Positions 4,631 through 26,557 of a stretch of DNA of 64,000 nt are shown one piece after another (position 1 is the first letter of the stretch; each line of letters opens with the position of its first letter). The notes beneath the pieces were generated by a model. The model did no database searches. It was given only the letters and a program-made list of their open reading frames with translations, and was not told the origin of the DNA. The stretch lies in contig JACAEQ010000034.1 of NCBI GenBank assembly GCA_013388755.1, positions 1-64,000 on the forward strand, written 5' to 3'. The DNA is from Chloroflexota bacterium (GTDB lineage: Bacteria > Chloroflexota > Chloroflexia > Chloroflexales > Roseiflexaceae). Both the position numbers and the translations under genes were made by a program.

Positions 4631-5857
4631 ATGAGTAGCGGATTCAGGCTTATGGTCGCCGGCCACACCGTTCGCTCCGCTGAAACGCCCGCTGAACTCG
4701 ATGCCTTCTTTCGTCTGAAGGTGGAAACGTTCATGCCTGCCGCTCCGCCTGATGCTGCCATGCGCTGGCGCGCGCATACCGAACGGTCACCTGACTACAT
4801 CGCCGGCCAGATACGCTGCATATTTGACGGTACCAGGCTGGTTGGCGGCTATATCCTTACCGAGCGAACGCTACGTATTGGCTCGCGCACCGTTCCAACC
4901 GGCTGCTTTGGCAGCCTGGTGACACATCCCGGCTGGCGTGGCCGTGGTATTGCCAGAGCGCTTATGCACGATGCCGCAGCCCGCGCCACCGAACGGCGAC
5001 TGGGCCTGGTGTTGCTCGATGGTATTGCCGGCTTTTACCACCGCTTCGGCTATACTGATGTGCTCGATCTCACACGCCATACCGTGAGCCGTGCCCATGT
5101 CCTTGCGTTGTCACCATCCAGTTACCTGGTTCGCCCTGCAACCGGCGCGGACGCTCCGGCACTGCTGGAGCTGTATCAGCGGCACTATAGCGGCTTCACC
5201 GGCAGCTTCGTTCGCGATGCCGCCTGGCAACACCACGATCTCGCCACGCGCCTGCCTGATAACCCGCCTCTGATCGCACTCGACGCGCACGGACGGGCGC
5301 GCGGTTACCTGATCCTGCCCTGGTATGCGCCACGCACCCATGCCGTCGAGGTTGCAGCCGATGACTGGCCGGCAACGCTGGGATTGTTGCAGCAGCACGC
5401 TCGACTGGCGGAGGAGGCAACAGAACTCGACTGGCCATTGCCACCCGATTCGCCGGCGTTTTATGCGCTTGCCGATCACCTGTACGTGACCAGCCGCTCA
5501 CATCATCATCCCGACGAGGGATGGATGGCATGCCCTGCACATCTTCCAACCCTGTTTGATTGTATCAAATCGCTCCTTGAAACTCGCCTCCGGCGCGCTC
5601 AGACGCCAGCCAGCGCACTGCGGCTGCGCGTCGGCACCGAAGGGCCGGCGTTCGGCATCGGGCCGGGCTGCGACGCGCCGGAGACGCCAACAATTATGTT
5701 GAGTTCAGCGGCGCTGGCGCAATTACTATTCGGCTTTCGACCCGCGCACTGGATCGCCGGCCAGCCATGCGTCGAAGTTGATCCGGCGCTTGTGCCGGCG
5801 CTCGATGCGATCTTCCCGATCGGCCATGTATGGGTGCCCGGCTCTGACGCGTTCTAA
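4631..5857 (+). CDS. Eis-like GNAT N-acetyltransferase
   Basis: A 408-residue protein with the layout of the Eis family: an N-terminal GNAT domain, a second GNAT-like fold and a C-terminal sterol-carrier-like domain. The acetyl-CoA loop is visible as VTHPGWRGRGIARALM, followed by LVLLDGIAGFYHRFGYTD, a characteristic Eis-type block. Such enzymes acetylate lysines or aminoglycosides; the substrate here is not evident. The in-frame reading continues upstream to 4412, but those residues are non-conserved-looking and the N-terminus at 4631 matches the family. The stop is four bases before the start of the cyclase fusion, so the two are probably co-transcribed. Confidence 0.85.
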   Translation: MSSGFRLMVAGHTVRSAETPAELDAFFRLKVETFMPAAPPDAAMRWRAHTERSPDYIAGQIRCIFDGTRLVGGYILTERTLRIGSRTVPTGCFGSLVTHPGWRGRGIARALMHDAAARATERRLGLVLLDGIAGFYHRFGYTDVLDLTRHTVSRAHVLALSPSSYLVRPATGADAPALLELYQRHYSGFTGSFVRDAAWQHHDLATRLPDNPPLIALDAHGRARGYLILPWYAPRTHAVEVAADDWPATLGLLQQHARLAEEATELDWPLPPDSPAFYALADHLYVTSRSHHHPDEGWMACPAHLPTLFDCIKSLLETRLRRAQTPASALRLRVGTEGPAFGIGPGCDAPETPTIMLSSAALAQLLFGFRPAHWIAGQPCVEVDPALVPALDAIFPIGHVWVPGSDAF

Positions 5858-5861
5858 TGCT

Positions 5862-8800
5862 ATGACGCTTGACCTGCTCGCAGAACTTGCTGCATACATC
5901 CCGCGCGACCGTGTTGAAGCTCTGCTGCGCGGTACCCCGCTGGCTCACGAGGGAGTCGCGTCGATCGCCGACATTTCCGGGTTTACGCCGCTCACCGAGG
6001 CGCTGACCAGCGGCTTGAGCGCGGACCAGGGCGCCGAGGCATTGACCCGCGCGCTCGACAGTGTGTTCACACCATTGATCGCCGAAATTCACGCATCTGG
6101 TGGTAGTGTGATCAAGTTTGGCGGCGACGCATTGATTGTGTGGCACCCACGCCCGCCACGCGCCCGTCGCATGACAGTACTGCGCGCCGCGTTGACCGCC
6201 GCATGGCGCATGCAGCACATGATGGCCACTCACGGACGTATTCTCACTCCGATCGGCCCGGTGATGTTGCAGATGAAGATTGGTATGGCGTTCGGGCCGG
6301 TACGGCGCTTTGCCGTGGGATTGCCGGAGTACGGCATCGAAGATGCGCTGGTTGGCCGCACCCTCGACCGGATGGCCGAAGCCGAACATCATGCCAGACC
6401 CGGCGAGATTGTGATTGATGCGGACTCGCTGGCGATTGACCCGCTGGCGGTCGAAGTTGCGACCGAGCGCGATGGGTTCGTGGTCGTTGGTCGTGTGCTG
6501 CGTCCATTGCGACGACGCCCCTGGCCGCCACTGCTGCGCGAGGCCGGGCCTGATACGCTGGTGCCATATGTGCCCGAGCAGGTGGCGCGCGCGCTCGCCG
6601 CCGGGCATCCTCATATCGGTGAGTTGAAGCCGGTCGTCAGCATGTTCGTCCAGTTCCACGGCCTCGACTACGACGGCGACGATGATGCCGGTGCGAAATT
6701 GCAGCTCTATTTCGCCATGGCACAGCGGACCGCCGGGCGCTTTGGTGGTAGGGTGAATCGCCTGATCACCGGCGACAAGGGGAGCCTGCTGCACGTCATC
6801 TTTGGCGCGCCACAGGCCGTGGAAGAACAGGAGACGCGCGCCGTGCATTGCGCGCTTGCGTTACTGCGCGAAGGCGGTAGCCTGCCGTTCATTGCGCGCC
6901 AGCGGATCGGCATGACCGCCGGGCGGGTCTTCGCCGGGCCGGTCGGTGCGCCTCAGCGCCACGACTATACCACGATGGGCGATGCAATCAATCTGTCGGC
7001 ACGGCTCATGCAGGCGGCGGCAGATCATCAGGCGCTCCTTGATGGCACCATGTGCGCCCGCCTTGACGATCGCTTCGATATCGCCGACCTGGGCATGATC
7101 CGGGTCAAAGGTAAAGCCGAGGCGGTGCATGTCCATGCGGTACTCGGGGTGCGCGCCGCCCATCGCCCTGTCGCCTGGCCGGCAGCACCGGCGCTCTCCG
7201 GCCGTGAACGCGAGCGGAATCTGCTGCAGATCCGGCTGACGACGGGCGGTACGCACGTTCTCGTCGGCGAGGCCGGTGCCGGGAAGACACACCTGATCGC
7301 GGTATTGCGCGCTGGCTCCGATCAGCTATGGGCCGGCGCGGCGGCACAGGCCTATGGTGCACAGCGTAGCGGCGCCCTGATTGCCGATGCGCTGCGTGAC
7401 CTGCTGGGCCTGGCAACCGACGACGATGGCCCGGATGGCACGCAACGCCTCGCACAGCTGTGCGATCGCGCGTTTGGCGCGCCCATGCGCAGTGCCACCT
7501 TTCCGTACCTTGCCCGCTTCCTCGGCCTGCCGCTCACATCCGCCGATGAGCACCGCATCCAGCAACTGGCGGGCGAGAGCTTTCGCTGGCGCCTGTTCGA
7601 AGTGGTACGCGACCTGTTCCGCGCCCTGGCGCAGCAGCACGCCGTTGTGCTGGCGCTCGACGACGTGCAGTGGGCCGATGCGACTTCGCTGGATATGATT
7701 GAGTCTCTGGCGCCGGTCACTGCAGAAACGCCGCTCACCGTGCTCCTGGCACTACGCCCCGACCGCGATACGCGTGCCTGGGGCGTCATTCGGCGCATTC
7801 TGGACGGAACCATGCAGGCAACGGAGCTCATCCTTAGCGGGCTCGATCCTGCCGCTGCCGCCGAACTCGTCGCCCGGCATGCGCCCGGCCTGCCAGAACG
7901 CCTGGTAGCGCAGATCGTCGAGCGTGGCGGCGGTAACCCTCTCTTTCTGGTCGAACTGGCGCGTACCCTCCACCTCCGCGGGCCAGCGGTCGCCCCACCG
8001 GATGCCGACCTGACGGCGCTTGATCTGCCCGATACATTGCAGGGGCTCCTGCTGGCCCAGATTGACCAGTTGCCCGTCAGGGCGCGCCAGACGCTCCAGA
8101 TGGCAGCGGTGATTGGCCGGACCTTCTCGCACCGTGTTCTGACGGCGCTGGCTGGTGACGATCCCCAACTCGACACCCATCTGGCCGATCTTGAACATGG
8201 CGCATTCATCACGCAGCTTGATCGATCATCCGAACGCGGCTATGCGTTTCGGCATACACTGGTCCAGGAGTGTGCCTACAGCACATTGCTGTACGAGCGC
8301 CGCCGGCCACTGCATCGCAGTGTTGCCCGGGCGCTGGAGCAACTGTTCCCGCAGCAGGTGATCGACCAGGCGGCCACGCTCGGTTTCCACTATGAGCGCG
8401 CCGAGGATTACGGCATTGCAGCGACGCATGTGCTGCGCGCCGGCGATAGTGCTCGCCTGATCGCCGCCGATGAGGAAGCTCAGGCATTCTATCGCCGCGC
8501 CCTGACCCTTCTCGATCGCGATCAGCAGGGCGCACAAACCGATCAACGGCGTGCTCATGCATACCTGCGCCAGGCACAGGTGTGCGCCAACCGGCTCGAT
8601 TTCGCCGGTGCGCAGGAACACTACGAACAGGCATTCTCACTCCTTGAGATAAACGAAGCCCGGCACACGCGCCACCATGCACGAGCCGGGCGCCGCCATA
8701 CGATCCGCCTCGGTATATCCGAGCATGGCCCGGCAACACTCGATCCCGGCTTGATTGAGACGGTTGGTGACGAGGAGATCGTCCCGGATCTCTTCGAGGG

Positions 8801-10211
8801 CCTGGTTGAGCTTGATGCTGAATTGAACGTGCTTCCCGCCCTGGCGCGCCGCTGGCAGATTGATGATCAGGGGCGACGTTATCGTTTCGAATTGCGGCCT
8901 GGCCTGCGCTGGAGCGATGGCGTACCACTTACTGCCCATGATGTTGTCTTTGCCTGGCGCCGTAACCTCGACCCGGCGACCGACGCAGCCATGGCCGATC
9001 TTCTCGATGTTGTCGCGGGCGCAGTGGAATACCGCACGGGCGCGGTGACGAATCCGGAGCATGTGCGGGTGAAGGCGATTGATGATCTCCATCTGGAGTT
9101 TGAGCTCCATACACCGCTCGCACACGCTCTCTATCTCCTGGCCGACCCGATCACGTTTCCGCAGCCCCGCCACGCCTTCGCACGCCATGGTGCCGCCTGC
9201 TTCACGCCGGCATTCCTGGTCTGCAATGGCCCGTATCGGGTGGCTGCGTGGCATGACGGCAGTGAAATTGTGCTGGAACGCAATCCCTACCGGAGTATCG
9301 CGCCAGACAGCGTCGAACGTGCTCTGCTGCGCTTCGTGCCGCCAACCTACGACTATTACGCATCCGGGCGCATTGACATGTGCCGGGTCGAAGATCGCGG
9401 CGACATCCTGGCACACCACCCGGACGAGGGTTTTGTGCGCCAGTTTCTCTCGACGTATTTCGTGGCATTTAACTGCGCCCACCCGCCATTCGACGATCCG
9501 CACGCCCGTCGGGCACTGGCGCATGCCGTCGATCGGCACGCGCTTGTTGCCAGGTGCTGGGCAGGCGTCCAGAAACCGGCCGATGGCGGTGTCGTTCCAC
9601 CGGGTATGGCGGGCCATTCACCCGAGATCGGGCCGCGCTTCGACCCGCGTATCGCGCTGCAGTTGCGCGATCACACGCGCCTGCGCCATGGTGGACGGTT
9701 GACGCTCGCAGCGCTGCCCGGCTTCGGCAGCGTGCCGCGGTTTCTCGCCACTGCCTGGCATGAGTATCTCGATCTCGATGTGGCACTGGTCGAGGACGTA
9801 CCGTATGACAGGCTGCTCAACGGATTGCACACAGGCATGTTTCAGATGGCGTTGCTTGGCTGCGACGCCGAAGCGCCGGAACCGGGAAACATGCTTGGTG
9901 GCTTTGCTGCCGGTGCCAGTTTCACCGCCGGCTGGCGCAGCACGGCGTTTGAAGCATGCCTGCGCGCGGCAGCGCTGCGTCTCAATGTACAGGAACGGCT
10001 CGCACTCTACCACCAGGCGGATCACATCCTGGTAACCGACGAGGCCGCGATCATCCCACTCTACTACTATCAGGCATACGGCATGCTGCGGTCGGGGCTG
10101 CGCCTGGCCGGCGGCAAGGTCGTACGCGGCGGCCAGGTTCGCCTGAAGCAGATCCGCGTCGCGCCTCACGGTAGCGCACCACAATTGCCTGTGTTCGGAA
10201 TCACCGAATGA
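5862..10211 (+). CDS. Tandem class III cyclase - AAA ATPase - oligopeptide-binding (SBP_bac_5) fusion protein
   Basis: A 1449-residue multidomain protein. Residues about 15-170 form a class III cyclase domain with both metal-binding aspartates visible (ADISGFTPL and GGDALIVW). Residues about 250-440 form a second cyclase domain in which the first aspartate position is substituted (MFVQFHGL) but YTTMGDAINLSARL is kept. This resembles the C1/C2 arrangement of soluble adenylyl cyclases. An ATPase domain follows (Walker A GEAGAGKT near 467, Walker B VLALDDVQWAD near 597), then a helical linker. Residues about 945-1435 match family 5 oligopeptide-binding proteins (GPATLDPGLIE, LRWSDGVPLTAHDVVFAW). 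No signal peptide is present, so the solute-binding domain is apparently cytoplasmic. The start ATG at 5862 fits the cyclase fold better than the upstream ATG at 5778. Confidence 0.88.
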   Translation: MTLDLLAELAAYIPRDRVEALLRGTPLAHEGVASIADISGFTPLTEALTSGLSADQGAEALTRALDSVFTPLIAEIHASGGSVIKFGGDALIVWHPRPPRARRMTVLRAALTAAWRMQHMMATHGRILTPIGPVMLQMKIGMAFGPVRRFAVGLPEYGIEDALVGRTLDRMAEAEHHARPGEIVIDADSLAIDPLAVEVATERDGFVVVGRVLRPLRRRPWPPLLREAGPDTLVPYVPEQVARALAAGHPHIGELKPVVSMFVQFHGLDYDGDDDAGAKLQLYFAMAQRTAGRFGGRVNRLITGDKGSLLHVIFGAPQAVEEQETRAVHCALALLREGGSLPFIARQRIGMTAGRVFAGPVGAPQRHDYTTMGDAINLSARLMQAAADHQALLDGTMCARLDDRFDIADLGMIRVKGKAEAVHVHAVLGVRAAHRPVAWPAAPALSGRERERNLLQIRLTTGGTHVLVGEAGAGKTHLIAVLRAGSDQLWAGAAAQAYGAQRSGALIADALRDLLGLATDDDGPDGTQRLAQLCDRAFGAPMRSATFPYLARFLGLPLTSADEHRIQQLAGESFRWRLFEVVRDLFRALAQQHAVVLALDDVQWADATSLDMIESLAPVTAETPLTVLLALRPDRDTRAWGVIRRILDGTMQATELILSGLDPAAAAELVARHAPGLPERLVAQIVERGGGNPLFLVELARTLHLRGPAVAPPDADLTALDLPDTLQGLLLAQIDQLPVRARQTLQMAAVIGRTFSHRVLTALAGDDPQLDTHLADLEHGAFITQLDRSSERGYAFRHTLVQECAYSTLLYERRRPLHRSVARALEQLFPQQVIDQAATLGFHYERAEDYGIAATHVLRAGDSARLIAADEEAQAFYRRALTLLDRDQQGAQTDQRRAHAYLRQAQVCANRLDFAGAQEHYEQAFSLLEINEARHTRHHARAGRRHTIRLGISEHGPATLDPGLIETVGDEEIVPDLFEGLVELDAELNVLPALARRWQIDDQGRRYRFELRPGLRWSDGVPLTAHDVVFAWRRNLDPATDAAMADLLDVVAGAVEYRTGAVTNPEHVRVKAIDDLHLEFELHTPLAHALYLLADPITFPQPRHAFARHGAACFTPAFLVCNGPYRVAAWHDGSEIVLERNPYRSIAPDSVERALLRFVPPTYDYYASGRIDMCRVEDRGDILAHHPDEGFVRQFLSTYFVAFNCAHPPFDDPHARRALAHAVDRHALVARCWAGVQKPADGGVVPPGMAGHSPEIGPRFDPRIALQLRDHTRLRHGGRLTLAALPGFGSVPRFLATAWHEYLDLDVALVEDVPYDRLLNGLHTGMFQMALLGCDAEAPEPGNMLGGFAAGASFTAGWRSTAFEACLRAAALRLNVQERLALYHQADHILVTDEAAIIPLYYYQAYGMLRSGLRLAGGKVVRGGQVRLKQIRVAPHGSAPQLPVFGITE

Positions 10212-11500
10212 TCAGGGTTGGCTACCAGAATACACATCTGTGTTGCACCGAATGGCCGGTCGCGCAGACTGAAGCCAGTGAACGGGCTGCTGCCGGCATA
10301 CATGTACCAGCCAGCCGGATCAGCGGGAACCCCCGCCTGATCGGGCGGCACCGTGTCGAAAAAGAAATGGACATGCAGTCCGGACATCTGTGGCGTGAAG
10401 CCGCTGGTGGTAAATGCCACATTGTAGGTATTGCCGGTGCGCGTTATGCCAGTAATGGCGGCTGCAGGGCCGCTTGCGCCGGTCACCAGCGGCAGAAAAC
10501 CGGCACGGTTGACCTGGTACATGGTCAGGCCGCTGCCGCTTTGCGACAGATTGGCGCCGCTGCTTGCATTGTTGCCGGCGATCACGGTATTGATCAACCA
10601 GACTTCTGCTTTGCCCGTGGCGCCTGCCGGGCGCTCGATGCGTAATCCGCCGCCTGCACCTGCGGGTGCGCCGTTCCCACTGAACACACTGTCTCTGATA
10701 ATGACGGTGCCGCTGAAGAGCCGGATCCGTCCGCCGCCCCCGCCGCCGGCGCCATCCGCCGTATTGTTCGTGACGGTGACCCTGTCGAGCGTAAGCGTGC
10801 TGTCACCCCGTACGTCAATCTCGAAACCACCGCCGCTTTCCGCACGCAGACCGCTGAAGCGACTGTTCCTGATCGTTACATTCGACCCGCCATCTATCGC
10901 GAGAAACAACCCGCCGCCGCGCCCGCTCACATCCGGCGTGTCTCCCTCATCGTTGCGGAAGATCACATTCTCAAAACGCAACCGCGCGCCATTCAACGCC
11001 GGGCCAGAAACCCCGCCGCCGTCGCCGGTCACCCCGCCCTGTGGCTCAAAGAAGACATGCAGAACATCCAGGTTCTTTACCGTCGGCGCAAGTGTCACGA
11101 CCGGCTCGCCGAAATTGAACAACCCGCCGCGTTGCGCCGGCGCGGTGAACGTAAAACCGGCATCCACGAATGCCGCCTCGCTATTGAAGACGACATTACC
11201 TGCCGCAGCACAGCCACCGGGTGGCGGCAACCATCCGCCTTCGAGCAGGAGGGTCGTGGTAATTGTGGCGCTCTCGGAGTTACGGCCAAATTCCGGATCG
11301 CTCGGGTCAACCATGACGACGATCGCATCACCGTCAACGGCGGCCCCGACAACATCTCGGAACTGGCCACAACCGCCCGCCCCACTCGTGCGCGCCCGGC
11401 GCGCCGCCGCCTCGGGCGTCCAGACGAGACCGGCAACCATCAACGCGAGGATCAGCGGTACGGCAAGCAGGCGCGTAGAGCGTAGCTGGTGCGAAAACAT
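10166..11500 (-). CDS. Secreted right-handed beta-helix (parallel beta-helix) repeat protein
   Basis: A 444-residue exported protein. Residues 1-33 form a Sec signal peptide (basic start, LLAVPLILALMVAGL core, cleavage near AAA). The middle (about 90-310) has repeated short strands rich in Asn, Thr and Gly, such as NVTIRNSRFSGLRAESGGGF, typical of polymorphic outer-membrane-type and pectate-lyase-like beta-helices. The C-terminal 100 residues form a different domain ending in a cysteine pair (MCILVANPD, NTGNCGALP). The function is unknown; a surface or extracellular role is inferred. Its last 46 bases overlap the 3' end of the cyclase fusion on the other strand, and it is divergent from the CHAT gene. 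Confidence 0.75.
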   Translation of the reverse strand: MFSHQLRSTRLLAVPLILALMVAGLVWTPEAAARRARTSGAGGCGQFRDVVGAAVDGDAIVVMVDPSDPEFGRNSESATITTTLLLEGGWLPPPGGCAAAGNVVFNSEAAFVDAGFTFTAPAQRGGLFNFGEPVVTLAPTVKNLDVLHVFFEPQGGVTGDGGGVSGPALNGARLRFENVIFRNDEGDTPDVSGRGGGLFLAIDGGSNVTIRNSRFSGLRAESGGGFEIDVRGDSTLTLDRVTVTNNTADGAGGGGGGRIRLFSGTVIIRDSVFSGNGAPAGAGGGLRIERPAGATGKAEVWLINTVIAGNNASSGANLSQSGSGLTMYQVNRAGFLPLVTGASGPAAAITGITRTGNTYNVAFTTSGFTPQMSGLHVHFFFDTVPPDQAGVPADPAGWYMYAGSSPFTGFSLRDRPFGATQMCILVANPDHSVIPNTGNCGALP

Positions 11501-11754
11501 GGCAACCTCCCATCAGTTCGTCGAAGGGCCAGCAGCAGCAGGAGCACGGCAAGAGAAGACCGGTTTGGCACATGATCGCCCGGAAACAGTCTACCACCAG
11601 CACCATGCGGAGGCTGGTGAGGCATGAGACGCGCCGGGTCCGGGTGAAACACCCTTATGATACCGTATGCTGCAAGTCATTTACATATGCATGCGCGTAT
11701 GCTATGCTGGAGGAACACGCAACGAATGTGCACGCCAGCCGGCATCTCCCTCCT
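11501..11754. other. Divergent intergenic region before the CHAT island
   Basis: A 254-bp gap between the beta-helix gene and the CHAT gene. It contains the repeated hexamer GTATGC (near 11665 and 11697) and an ATATGCATGCGCGTATGC block, but I see no convincing -35/-10 pair. GGAGGA at 11709-11714 is 13 bp before an in-frame GTG at 11728, an alternative start for the CHAT protein. Confidence 0.4.
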
Positions 11755-14700
11755 ATGTCGTTCCAGATACTGCACATCCGATTCACGGACGTCGGCGTCT
11801 ATCAGCCGTCGCGAAAGCAGCACCACCCGCCCGGCGGGTTGCGGTTCGTCTTTGATGTGACGCTTGATGGACAGACACAGGGCGGCGTGTATATACTGCC
11901 GTTCTTTCCCGATGATGTCCCTCACCTTCAACTCTTGCTTGCGCGCTGCCAGGAGGGCGGGCCGGTATACTTCAATCTGGCAACCTGCACACCCGAAGAG
12001 CAAGAGGCGTTTGCCCGCGCCGGGCTGGTGACGGCTGACGCGATGGTGTACGATGACCCCGCAGCCCTGCTTGGCCGGGAACTTCACAAGAGCCTGGCAA
12101 CGGCACGAGGCGTACGCCCGGTGTGGGACATGTTTCTTCAGCGCCTCCCGCCAGCTCCACCTGCCGGTGCGCCGCCTGCGGCCTGTGTGTTGCTCGATTT
12201 CAGCCCGCTGTATGACGATCCAGCGGACGATGTCGAATATGCTGACTACCTGCTGGCGCTTCCCTGGGAAATGTTGCGCGTTGCAGACGCCGCCGTTCCG
12301 CTGCAGGAAGACGGGGTCGTCATTGTGCGCCGGATTGCCATCGGTCACGTACCGGCCCGGGCGCCACTCGTGCCTTCAGTGATTGCCGTGCGCCCGCAGT
12401 TTGCTGTGACTCCTACCATCCGGCAATTTGATGAGCGTGCATTACCGCAGCCATCGTACGGCGATGCGCCATTCTGGTGCTCGTTGCACGTCGAACCGCC
12501 GGGCCTCACCGTCACGCGGCTCCAGGAGATGATCAGGGGCTATGAACCTCACATCCTTCACTATTTCGGGCATGGCGACACCCTCACCGGCGCGATAGGC
12601 GACCTGCGCGACGTGGCGCTGCTCCTGGATGCCCCCGGCGCATCGGCCCCCGATCCGTTGCGCGGCCTTCCTCTGCGTCTCGATCTGCAGGGCATCGATC
12701 TGCGCCTCCTGGTATTGTTCGCATGCCAGGGCGCCGATCCGCTGCCTGACCCGGATCGGCTGGACCGGTACGGCACCGGCTCGCTGGTGCGTCTGCTCAC
12801 CGGGCAGGTGCCGGCAATCCTGGCAATGCAAACGGTCATACAGGCTCCGGCGGCGGCGGAAGCAAGCCGTGCGCTCTACCCGGTTCTGGCCGAGGGCCGC
12901 ACGCTGTTCGATGCCGTGCTGCAGATGCGGCGCGCGCTCTACCGCTTCGCCCAGGAATCGATCAACCAGTATCACGGGAACCGACATGCCTGGTGGGTGC
13001 CGGCGCTGTATATCTCCGATCCGGCGGTTGATCGCCCACTGGCACGGCCGGCAGACCGGGCATTCCTCGATCCACTCGATGCGCCGCCGCCATCGCGGCT
13101 CATTGACCGGCGACCGCTGCTCGAGCAGCTCCTGACGGCTGTCAACAACACCCAGATTGTCGAGGTTATCGGCGATCGGAACAGCGGGCGGACGACACTG
13201 CTACAGCGCGCACTGGCCGAACTGCGCCAGCAACAGGTGCAGTGCATTGCATTGCGGGCTCGCCCGCCACGCACCGAGAGTGCGTCCGAATATGTCAAAA
13301 TCCTCCAGCGCGAGATTGTCTGTTATGTCAATCAAAATCAGCCGCCGCCGCCATACTGGGCAGACGCCCACGAAGCGTATGTGGCAACCCTGGCTTCCTG
13401 TTCGGGGCATGACTCGCCACTGTACATACTGCTCGACAACCTGGACGATCTGCTTGCTACCGAACCACGGGCACTCAAGTGGTTGATCCCTGACCCCTTG
13501 CCGTGCGGTGTGCGTTGTGTCATCACCCGCAAACGTGAGCCATTGCCCGGCCTGGCCAGTGGAGACATCGTTGAGGTACCGCCGTTTACCCGGGCGCAAC
13601 TCGAAGAAATCACGCGCCACACGTTTGGCGATTACCTGCAACGATTTGCTGCCGAACGCATGCAGCCTGCATTTGAGGCGGTTGAGACCATCCTGTTCAC
13701 CCTGCCCGGCCCATTGCCGAAGGTGACGGTCGTTGATCTGGCGCACGAGATGCACCCGGGGTCAGGCATACAGGAGGTAACGGGCATTCTGCAACAACTG
13801 GTTGACGCCGGTTTTGTACAGATCGATCAGGACACCTACACACTGGCCAGTGAGCGGTATCGCAAGGGATGGTGGCTCCTCCCCGATACCGACCTCATGC
13901 GTCATCGCTTGCTCCCACTCGTGCGTGATCATCTGCAGCGCCCCGGCTTGTCCACTGAGAAACGTTACCCTGCCGAAGTATTACACACACTGGCGGACCC
14001 GCTGCTGCTTGACGACCGGCAGGCTCGCAGCGACCTGCTGCCGCCGCCAGACTCGCTGGATTTCCAGCGCCCACCCCGACCCTATCGTGTCTGGCACAAC
14101 CTGGCACGTGCATACCAGCAACACGGGATGAGCAATGCCTTCCGTTACCCGGCACGCGCGGCACAGCACACGTTCCGCTGTAGCGCCATGGACCGGGCGG
14201 TGCTCGAATTGCTCATCTTCCTGCTCAGCGAACAACGCCCCGTTCCCCGGCGCGATGCGCTCTGGGGCGCAATCTGCGACGATCGTCGCTCACTGCTGGC
14301 CACCTGGCTCGAAGAAAACAGCAATGACCCGCTGGCGATCGTCTTCAAAGCGGTACAACGGATCAGTCGCGACGAAGCGCCTCCTGATTCGCTTATCACT
14401 GCACTGAACACCTGCCCGGCGGATACTCGTACGCTGGCGCTGCACTGGGTGGTTGCGCCGTTGCTCGCCGCGCGCTGGCCAACCGGCATCACGGAGGCTC
14501 TGAATGCGCTGCTCGATAATCACGCGCGTTTGCAGCTTGCGTTGATACTTGCCGCGGCGGCGCGCGGCTCACCGGCCCACCCGGCTCTGGTGCAGGCACG
14601 ACGCTGGTTCGAACAACTGCGGGGCAGCGAACCGGATCCTTCAGCAAACGACGCGCTTCGCGCGCTCTGGATCGCCATCTTGCCGGCATTCGACATGCAG

Positions 14701-15561
14701 GCGGAAGCGAAGGCGTTCCATGAGATCAATCGCGACATGTTGCGCCGGAGTCGCACAATGCCGGATCCACCGCCTGAACGGCGCGCTATGCGTATTGCCG
14801 AAGAAATTGTACTGCGCCACGTCGCAGAGACGGAGATTCCCGAGCCATGGCCATTCTCCGAAGGATGGATCGAGACAACGTTCGTTGCACCGGCGTTACG
14901 CCTCGAGACGGACGATGAGATCGATTCCTTCTGGCGCGGGTTCGTCGCCGGGTTGCGCGATGAAGGCAGGTATCGCCCCGAGACGCTCGACCGCGCCGCC
15001 CTGGTATATGTGCTGTGCTGCACCCTGCTCAACCGCGCGCCACGCGGAACGGAGATGCACCGCCACCTGGCAGAACGTATCACTGAGCTCCGGCCATACA
15101 CCGCGGAGGTGATAGCCGCACTTGGACGCTGGCTCCACGACGACTCCCATGTGCAACGCACGCTGGCCGGGGCTGCGCGCGAACTGCTTGCCACACCGCT
15201 GGGGTTCGATCCCGCAGATCCCGCCCTTGTCTGGCTGCCGCGCATCATGATCACAGCACCACAGTTGTGCGGTATATGGTACGATGCATTTCAGGAGGCC
15301 GCGCGCACCATGGCGACCACCAGCGGTCCCGAAACGATCCTCGACACAGACCTGAGTGCCAGTAATCCGCATCTGGACCGGGTGATCGAGAGCCGCCTCG
15401 ATGAGTTGCTCGACTCGAGCGATGAATATCTGCAGCAGATGTATCGGAGCCATGACGATTTCGATCTGCCTGATGAAGATGGCATGCGAAACTGGATCAA
15501 TATCTGGAAACAACGTACGGAGCGCTTTGTGCGCGATCTGCTCGCGACTGGACTAAGGTGA
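11755..15561 (+). CDS. CHAT (caspase-like) domain protein with STAND-like ATPase module
   Basis: A 1268-residue protein. The N-terminal third is a CHAT caspase-fold domain: the catalytic His is in HYFGHGD (residue 273) and the catalytic Cys in LLVLFACQGAD (residue 324), followed by the usual GTGSLVRLL and VPAILAMQ strands. A P-loop ATPase begins near residue 473 (GDRNSGRTTLL). Its Walker Lys is replaced by Arg, while the Walker B LYILLDNLDDLL is intact. The remaining 650 residues are largely helical and unrecognised. CHAT proteases cut protein targets in conflict or cell-death systems; here the protein leads a same-strand set of three more ATPases and a radical SAM protein. A GTG at 11728 with GGAGGA upstream is an alternative start. 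Confidence 0.85.
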   Translation: MSFQILHIRFTDVGVYQPSRKQHHPPGGLRFVFDVTLDGQTQGGVYILPFFPDDVPHLQLLLARCQEGGPVYFNLATCTPEEQEAFARAGLVTADAMVYDDPAALLGRELHKSLATARGVRPVWDMFLQRLPPAPPAGAPPAACVLLDFSPLYDDPADDVEYADYLLALPWEMLRVADAAVPLQEDGVVIVRRIAIGHVPARAPLVPSVIAVRPQFAVTPTIRQFDERALPQPSYGDAPFWCSLHVEPPGLTVTRLQEMIRGYEPHILHYFGHGDTLTGAIGDLRDVALLLDAPGASAPDPLRGLPLRLDLQGIDLRLLVLFACQGADPLPDPDRLDRYGTGSLVRLLTGQVPAILAMQTVIQAPAAAEASRALYPVLAEGRTLFDAVLQMRRALYRFAQESINQYHGNRHAWWVPALYISDPAVDRPLARPADRAFLDPLDAPPPSRLIDRRPLLEQLLTAVNNTQIVEVIGDRNSGRTTLLQRALAELRQQQVQCIALRARPPRTESASEYVKILQREIVCYVNQNQPPPPYWADAHEAYVATLASCSGHDSPLYILLDNLDDLLATEPRALKWLIPDPLPCGVRCVITRKREPLPGLASGDIVEVPPFTRAQLEEITRHTFGDYLQRFAAERMQPAFEAVETILFTLPGPLPKVTVVDLAHEMHPGSGIQEVTGILQQLVDAGFVQIDQDTYTLASERYRKGWWLLPDTDLMRHRLLPLVRDHLQRPGLSTEKRYPAEVLHTLADPLLLDDRQARSDLLPPPDSLDFQRPPRPYRVWHNLARAYQQHGMSNAFRYPARAAQHTFRCSAMDRAVLELLIFLLSEQRPVPRRDALWGAICDDRRSLLATWLEENSNDPLAIVFKAVQRISRDEAPPDSLITALNTCPADTRTLALHWVVAPLLAARWPTGITEALNALLDNHARLQLALILAAAARGSPAHPALVQARRWFEQLRGSEPDPSANDALRALWIAILPAFDMQAEAKAFHEINRDMLRRSRTMPDPPPERRAMRIAEEIVLRHVAETEIPEPWPFSEGWIETTFVAPALRLETDDEIDSFWRGFVAGLRDEGRYRPETLDRAALVYVLCCTLLNRAPRGTEMHRHLAERITELRPYTAEVIAALGRWLHDDSHVQRTLAGAARELLATPLGFDPADPALVWLPRIMITAPQLCGIWYDAFQEAARTMATTSGPETILDTDLSASNPHLDRVIESRLDELLDSSDEYLQQMYRSHDDFDLPDEDGMRNWINIWKQRTERFVRDLLATGLR

Positions 15562-24379: not shown

Positions 24380-26557
24380 TTATACCGGAAATTGCAATCG
24401 CTCAAGACGTTCGGCAGCGCGGGGGCAATCACCTGCGTTCGCGCTCAGCGCACGCCGATACCAGGCCGCCGCCTCCCCCGGCTGATCGAGCCGCTCATAC
24501 AGCCCCCCCAGCGCCAGCAGGGCTTCGATGTACATGTCGCGGAGTTCGTTGCGCCGCACCTCGACGTAGGACGAGTCGCCGTAAAAGGGGCAATCATCCA
24601 TGTAGTCGCCCCGGTAGTGCGCCAGCGCCTCGGCAAACGCGGCGCGTGCAGCTTCCGTCTCGCCGCGCCGGGCCAGTGTGTGCCCACGCTCCATGGCCGC
24701 CGTGAAAGCATCAATATCGCACCAGGCAATCACCCCCGGATCGAGCCAGTAACGCTCATGGTGAAACATGATCGCCCGGCTTTCATTGCCGCGCCGCAAT
24801 CCAGGTTCAAGGGTGCGCCGCAAGCCGGAGATCGTCCGGTGAAACGCCATGTCGGCGCGTTCGATCGGTAGATCGGGCCAGATCACCTCGGCAGCTTCAT
24901 CTTTTGTGACGCCGCGCCCCCGCCGGTCGAACAGAAATGCAAACAGCGCTTCCGCCTGGTACGTACCGGCCTTGTCGCCACCCCAGCGCTCGATCGGCAC
25001 GCCGCCACGTTCGACACGCAACGGCCCCAGCGCCAGGACGCGCAATCCGTCGCTCCGCTTTTCGGATTGTGCCGCTTCACGCGTAGCCGCCGCCTGCAAT
25101 GCCAGCACCTCCTGCTCGCGGTGTAACTGCCGGCTTTGCTCCGCTAACACGGCCATAGCGAGTTCCTGCTCCTGCTGGCGATGGGCATGCCGGATCGTCA
25201 ATGAGAGATAGCCGCCAAGTGAGTTGAGGAGCGCCTGTTCCGCCGTGGAATACGGTTCACCGGAGCGTTTCATGCCAAGTGCCAGCAGGCCGAGTACCTC
25301 ATCACCCTGACGGAGCGGCAACAGTAGTCGCGCGCCTGGCCAGGCGTCCCATGCATCAACGCATACCTGCGCCACGGCAGGCGGCGCCATCACCGCAAGG
25401 CGTTCGGCATAGGGCACGCCATGTCCATGGCGTGCCAGGGCGCGCAACCCTGGCCCATCACGCACCGCAACAAAACCGGCGTCAATGTCAAGCGTCCGGC
25501 AGATGGTCGCCAACGCTGCGTGCAGTTGCCCGGCCAGGTCGCCGCGCTCGAACAGGTCGTCACCAACGGCTCGCAACAGTCGCCCGTAATCGAACTCACG
25601 GTGAAACAGGGCGCGATCCAGCCAGTCGCCCGCCCAATCACGCAACGGGCCCGAGAGTGCCGCAAGCGCCACCAGCGCCAGCGGCGCCACCAGCGGCACA
25701 CCGAGCCCCAGCGCGCGCTCGGTGGCTGGAGCGAGCAGCACCAGCGCTCCGGCATAGATACTGGTCAGGACGCCACCCAGCAGCGAGCGCAGGAATGCGC
25801 GCTGCGCCACGCGCGCCGGCAACAATGCGCGGTACGCGAGCACTGCATAGGCGAACAGTACCAGCGACAGCGCCATCAACAGGTGCCCCGGCGCTGGTGA
25901 CAGGCCAATCTCGCGTCCGGTGATGATCCACAGCGCGCCAGCGACGCCAATGATAGCCGCGACGCCGATCAGCGCCAGTCGCCGGCGCTCCAGATCATCG
26001 CGGCGAGTGCGACGATAGCTATCGAAAAGCAACACCAGCCCGAGGAGCAGCGGCACAATGCGCAACGCCAGCCAGAGCGCGACAAGTGGCCCCGCAGGAA
26101 ACCGGAGCGTGCGCCAGCCATCCATCTCCACCAGCGCCATCGCCGGCGATAGCAGAGCGTACAACACCAGCGCCACACTGCCGGCGTAGAGCCCGGCAAG
26201 CGCCCACAACGGTACAGCACGCGGCCATACCTGGCGCATCGCGCTCCCGCGCGATCGCGCGCCGATCAGCACGGCAATGAAGTGCAGAAAGATGGGCGTC
26301 AACAGTACCGATTCTGCAGCGTTGAGGCGCAGGAACCCATCAGCAACCCCTGGCGATACAGTCACCTGGGGGAGTGCCGCCGAGAGGCCGTAAAGCGTCA
26401 GATGCAGGCACAACCAGGCAAACAGGCGAGCCGGCGGCTCGCGTGGCGCGCGCGCCAGCAGGCTCAACCCGAGCCAGCAGGCAAGTACCGCCATGATCAG
26501 TGCGGGCAGGTAAGTGAACATGCCCAGAGTATACCATTGCCTGTCGTAGAGCGACAA
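24380..26557 (-). CDS. Membrane-anchored GAF-SARP (BTAD) transcriptional regulator
   Basis: A 725-residue regulator. Residues 1-290 contain about eight hydrophobic segments, like the membrane sensor half of some histidine kinases. A GAF domain follows at about 320-470 (CRTLDIDAGFVAV, LLLPLRQGDEVLGLLAL), then a short coiled coil. The C-terminus from about 515 is a SARP-type winged helix (RVLALGPLRVERGG, WPDLPIERADMAFHRTISGL) plus a bacterial transcriptional activation domain with TPR-like helices (YRGDYMDDCPFY). There is no kinase domain, so membrane sensing appears to be coupled directly to DNA binding. The start could also be ATG 26521. Confidence 0.8.
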   Translation of the reverse strand: MSLYDRQWYTLGMFTYLPALIMAVLACWLGLSLLARAPREPPARLFAWLCLHLTLYGLSAALPQVTVSPGVADGFLRLNAAESVLLTPIFLHFIAVLIGARSRGSAMRQVWPRAVPLWALAGLYAGSVALVLYALLSPAMALVEMDGWRTLRFPAGPLVALWLALRIVPLLLGLVLLFDSYRRTRRDDLERRRLALIGVAAIIGVAGALWIITGREIGLSPAPGHLLMALSLVLFAYAVLAYRALLPARVAQRAFLRSLLGGVLTSIYAGALVLLAPATERALGLGVPLVAPLALVALAALSGPLRDWAGDWLDRALFHREFDYGRLLRAVGDDLFERGDLAGQLHAALATICRTLDIDAGFVAVRDGPGLRALARHGHGVPYAERLAVMAPPAVAQVCVDAWDAWPGARLLLPLRQGDEVLGLLALGMKRSGEPYSTAEQALLNSLGGYLSLTIRHAHRQQEQELAMAVLAEQSRQLHREQEVLALQAAATREAAQSEKRSDGLRVLALGPLRVERGGVPIERWGGDKAGTYQAEALFAFLFDRRGRGVTKDEAAEVIWPDLPIERADMAFHRTISGLRRTLEPGLRRGNESRAIMFHHERYWLDPGVIAWCDIDAFTAAMERGHTLARRGETEAARAAFAEALAHYRGDYMDDCPFYGDSSYVEVRRNELRDMYIEALLALGGLYERLDQPGEAAAWYRRALSANAGDCPRAAERLERLQFPV

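Follow-up and report, generated by a model that had tools for sequence, protein, structure and literature searches.

A gene on the forward strand (5862–10211) of the 64,000-nucleotide stretch of DNA analysed here, hereafter the window, encodes a 1449-residue protein in which two class III cyclase domains, a STAND-type AAA switch, TPR-like helical repeats and a complete family 5 solute-binding domain (SBP) follow one another in a single chain. This dual-cyclase-SBP protein belongs to a real, conserved and unusual gene family, which varies the known theme of STAND signalling and does not amount to a new kind of system; full-text literature searches returned no report of its architecture. In uptake, solute-binding proteins normally act as receptors outside the cell; the SBP inside this cyclase-STAND protein is most plausibly a putative ligand sensor.

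A cyclase pair, a STAND switch and an SBP in one chain

The reading frame starts with an ATG at 5862 and ends with a stop at 10211; the open frame reaches upstream to a TTG at 5778, and the assigned start is backed by its alignment with the starts of orthologs (MTLDLLAELAAYIPRDRV versus MTADLMAQLAAYIPRDRV). Pfam matched Guanylate_cyc (residues 311–421, 4e-10), AAA_16 (446–626, 5e-16) and SBP_bac_5 (990–1278, 6e-51), and together with a PDB sequence search this bore out the sequence-only reading of the DNA, which had proposed two class III cyclase domains, an AAA module and a full family 5 SBP in one chain lacking a signal peptide. The same reading placed the chain in the cytoplasm, and this withstood an export test: the protein has neither a signal peptide nor a membrane segment, its best hydrophobic mean (1.27) lies below TM-like values, and most stand-alone control SBPs score higher, ruling out export. 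Since the AAA module is followed by TPR-like repeats, the join in the window protein is AAA-TPR-SBP, which corrects the earlier description. A joining error near 8.65–8.70 kb, raised there as a possible flaw, was not found; an assembly error or frameshift is ruled out by orthologs that share the same join, namely those of an Anaerolineae MAG (L073), an Oscillochloris MAG (L034/L074) and L064, as well as that of Oscillochloris ZM17-4 (L065/L075), which has a masked gap.

The three uninterrupted full-length orthologs are 45–49% identical to the window protein and retain the whole architecture, including the catalytic residues and the SBP. One of them, L064, lies in a single-contig finished genome of 5,258,541 bp that we take to be Chloroflexus aurantiacus J-10-fl, a cultured model phototroph, making the protein directly testable. 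A sixth dual-cyclase copy (L035) is cut at a contig end, so that the SBP half alone is visible, and the apparent shortness of the G272 copy (921 residues) stems solely from a stretch reading N.

The two cyclase domains, C1 (residues 30–206; 5949–6479, +) and C2 (residues 236–431; 6567–7154, +), both align with human soluble adenylyl cyclase (sAC) in the PDB sequence search; C1 itself falls below Pfam detection. An AlphaFold model of the pair, of modest confidence (pLDDT 62), gave human sAC as all of its top 24 Foldseek matches, with an E-value of 8e-22 across both domains. In our alignment, sAC D47, K95 and D99 correspond to D37, K85 and D89 of C1, and sAC K334, T405, N412 and R416 to K306, T370, N377 and R381 of C2, so that every catalytic residue checked is kept, divided between the two domains. 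The metal-Asp positions of C2 read as Q264 and S308 in the alignment, in agreement with the earlier claim that the first domain keeps its metal aspartates and the second does not, like soluble adenylyl cyclases; a single active site is therefore expected at the C1/C2 interface, as in sAC. Judged by its residues, the cyclase pair is an intact sAC-type engine with predicted activity. The bicarbonate-site arginine of sAC, R176, is a trait of mammalian sAC regulation and not of the catalytic type; the corresponding residue in the window protein is alanine, suggesting that sAC-like bicarbonate control is not to be expected. The C1/C2 pair with one intact site, followed by AAA and TPR modules, resembles ADCY10 sAC and bacterial cyclase-AAA-TPR proteins; the C-terminal SBP and the alanine at the R176 position set the window protein apart from ADCY10.

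The AAA_16/STAND NTPase module (7197–7739, +), placed by Pfam and motif positions, has intact Walker A (GEAGAGKT, 469–476) and Walker B (LALDD, 597–601) motifs. TPR-like helical repeats (residues 792–943; 8235–8690, +) lead from it into the SBP, giving the arrangement that defines STAND proteins, a NOD with Walker A and B followed by a helical arm or TPR. These repeats were delimited with a junction profile (A2) and are all-helical in the AlphaFold2 model; Pfam scored TPR (TPR_12) in orthologs, and for the window protein listed no TPR at E 0.1. The SBP (residues 947–1433; 8700–10160, +) is a full-length, OppA-like SBP_bac_5 domain according to Pfam, the PDB sequence search (OppA matching residues 958–1406, 170 bits), AlphaFold and Foldseek. 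The AlphaFold model of residues 457–1449 (pLDDT 83.8, pTM 0.81) contains, in order, the AAA module, helical repeats, a short low-confidence hinge (940–942) and a complete SBP, which Foldseek matched to OppA over its whole span (E 3e-32, target TM-score 0.81); OppA and DppE were its best matches, with target TM-scores of 0.81–0.85.

An SBP shared by several regulators

To trace the fusion further, a TPR-SBP junction profile was searched against 400 Chloroflexota genomes, in which fused proteins scored 218–354 bits and everything else at most 120 bits over half the profile. Fused copies occur in 9 of these genomes, so the architecture recurs in Chloroflexota, where it is rare and patchy. The phyla to which a cyanobacterial-lineage MAG, a Rubellimicrobium and a Cohnella belong, sampled with 244, 299 and 249 genomes respectively (792 together), yielded no fusion in searches that scored some candidates per genome and carried no positive control. 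One long open frame, in G105, was rejected as a fused protein because it encodes a lipoprotein SBP of the usual kind, accompanied by a permease.

The same SBP stands behind AAA-TPR modules with several other N-terminal effectors: a single cyclase (L067, L071, L077 and L080, and by reading L196, L197 and L199), SARP/BTAD (L068, L069, L082), a Ser/Thr kinase (L078, and by reading L198) and CHAT plus cyclase (L070), as well as with no effector (L066). Set against 49 stand-alone SBPs, among them SBPs from the fused proteins' own genomes and that of the transporter next to L068, the fused SBPs come out as a single clade with support of 100/98 (99/98 in a first tree). Presence of the fusion was itself the criterion for grouping, so the test is not blind. 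Effector type changes at least eight times on this SBP tree. For the AAA modules of these proteins a single clade is rejected (9 changes; AU p = 5e-7); they tend to group with AAA modules from proteins that share their output. This pattern, one SBP clade on AAA modules that are not one clade, fits an SBP sensor cassette that moved among regulators, and a single origin of the cassette with later transfer among STAND regulators is its simplest reading. The TPR tree is intermediate (5 changes), leaving the limit of the cassette upstream of the SBP unsure. Such a cassette family across regulators is new to us.

The fused cyclase-SBP gene of L077 lies beside another cyclase-AAA-TPR gene (8407–13488, −), which adjoins a PBP_like_2 lipoprotein; the single-cyclase SBP gene of L197 sits, by eye, between a caspase-like gene (879–2453) and an nSTAND/WD40-like gene (6294–10001).

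Ligand pocket and neighbouring genes

In OppA, D419 binds the peptide amine. The aligned residue of the window protein is E1337 (codon 9870–9872, +), a conservative change, and OppA R413 is replaced by leucine. Among fused SBPs, 15 of 21 have D or E at the D419 position and 6 lack it, compared with 26 of 26 stand-alone SBPs carrying one, implying that the fused-SBP pocket is related but altered. The sequence-only reading, that an SBP had been recruited as an internal peptide or ligand sensor controlling cyclase activity, is partly supported: the recruited internal SBP is most plausibly a ligand sensor, its control of the cyclase is a prediction, and peptide as the ligand is not assured, given Glu1337 in place of Asp419 and the loss of Arg413. 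Many SBP-typical columns and the full fold are kept across effector types. No permease or transporter gene was present next to the window gene among the neighbours scanned. At L068 (8992–12793), the BTAD-AAA-SBP gene is followed by a second Opp/Dpp-type SBP and two permeases, the best hint that the ligand may be a transported solute.

The 3′ end of the cyclase-SBP gene overlaps a convergent gene (10166–11500, −) encoding a right-handed β-helix protein whose N-terminus carries a hydrophobic segment for export. This gene adjoins the dual-cyclase SBP gene in all six members, and among 21 genomes chosen by hand, a full-length homolog was found in 6/6 with the dual-cyclase fusion and 0/15 without it; 14 of the latter had no match, and one had the C-terminal 113 residues only, within another secreted protein. 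That protein, encoded at L209 (8743–12660, −), has 1306 residues, is by eye subtilisin-like and shares these 113 residues at 62% identity. Upstream lies a GNAT gene whose end is 4 nt from the ATG; it is not conserved beside orthologs. Just past the β-helix gene, the window encodes a protein that joins a CHAT domain to an AAA/NACHT-like module (11572–15561, +). At two of three loci in G050, the fused gene also adjoins a gene for an exported protein of very large size, with FG-GAP or DUF11/PMP repeats.

A broader proposal is that Chloroflexota 'SBP-STAND' proteins constitute a distinct intracellular receptor class, in which one ancestral OppA-derived cassette was repeatedly grafted onto unrelated outputs (cyclase, SARP, kinase, CHAT) and whose dual-cyclase form is paired with the exported β-helix surface protein, reporting envelope-linked peptides or fragments; we regard this as speculative and, taken as a whole, unlikely.

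A proposed mechanism and its alternatives

STAND proteins are built from an effector, a NOD, an arm and a sensor; contacts made by the arm and sensor keep them inactive until an inducer binds the sensor and switches them on (PMC6468293). On this logic, we consider it fairly probable that the window protein is a cytosolic STAND-type signalling enzyme whose C-terminal SBP binds an intracellular small ligand, releases the NOD and turns on the C1/C2 cyclase. The ligand bound by the SBP would probably be a peptide taken up by the cell or another solute of the OppA class, and SBP closure or repositioning would relieve autoinhibition of the AAA (NOD) module by the TPR/arm. Nucleotide exchange and assembly would then switch on the N-terminal cyclase, whose one sAC-like active site would produce cAMP. 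Its downstream targets may be cNMP-binding proteins, 15 matches to such domains being present in the genome as possible readers of the product. We infer each of these steps, from ligand binding through release of autoinhibition to the cAMP product and its targets, from the domain arrangement.

The closest functional precedent is SgrR, which together with DsvR uses SBP_bac_5 inside the cell, both being cytosolic regulators with this domain at the C-terminus (PMC13060122); there, the output is an HTH and neither an AAA/TPR switch nor a cyclase is present, whereas the N-terminus of the window protein is a cyclase. MalT and AfsR share the order of NOD, arm and C-terminal sensor, and in AfsR (SARP-NOD-TPR) the effector is also N-terminal (PMC6468293, PMC10936776). 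In those proteins, however, the TPR is the end sensor, while the window protein adds an SBP and a cyclase output. OppA and DppE share the full fold, but are exported where the window protein is cytosolic, without the changes at D419 and R413 and the lack of adjoining permeases seen here. If portable cytosolic SBPs do serve STAND switches, they would offer a general design for receptors that sense metabolites or peptides inside the cell, and the SBP would provide a sAC-like cyclase with a sensor that can be tested in vitro.

Alternatively, the SBP could have lost small-ligand binding while retaining the OppA fold, and act as a scaffold or docking domain for another protein, such as a component of an ABC transporter or a protein derived from the envelope. 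Proteins are frequent cues for TPR/STAND proteins, and the non-acidic residues at the D419 position in fused but never in stand-alone SBPs, together with the R413 replacement, point in this direction; retention of the fold and of many SBP-typical columns across effectors, the acidic residue in most fused SBPs and the Opp transporter adjoining one member argue against it, and we consider docking possible, if improbable.

The ligand-sensing reading must also be weighed against an anti-phage conflict role, in which an Avs/Pycsar-like STAND protein would convert an invader cue into a cyclic nucleotide alarm. We give this little credence: the STAND build, the nearby CHAT-AAA gene, the CHAT domain of L070 and weak PADLOC matches to Pycsar cyclases are consistent with it, but those matches cover the generic cyclase core only, no Pycsar effector, such as the cCMP/cUMP effector adjacent to PycC, occurs among the neighbours scanned, and the conserved neighbour encodes the exported β-helix protein. 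Assignment as a defence system was accordingly rejected. Nor does the rarity of the fusion make it credible, beyond a very slight chance, that this is a degenerate or inactive protein or that its parts were fused by neutral accident, since its architecture, catalytic residues and SBP persist in orthologs that have diverged to less than half identity.

A plasmid scan of the DNA gave no match, and a plasmid origin was set aside. Elsewhere in the window, a gene at 24380–26557 (−) encodes a 7TM-GAF-TPR/BTAD-like protein in which no output domain was recognised, and a PucC-family gene (207–1511, −) suggests a phototrophic host.
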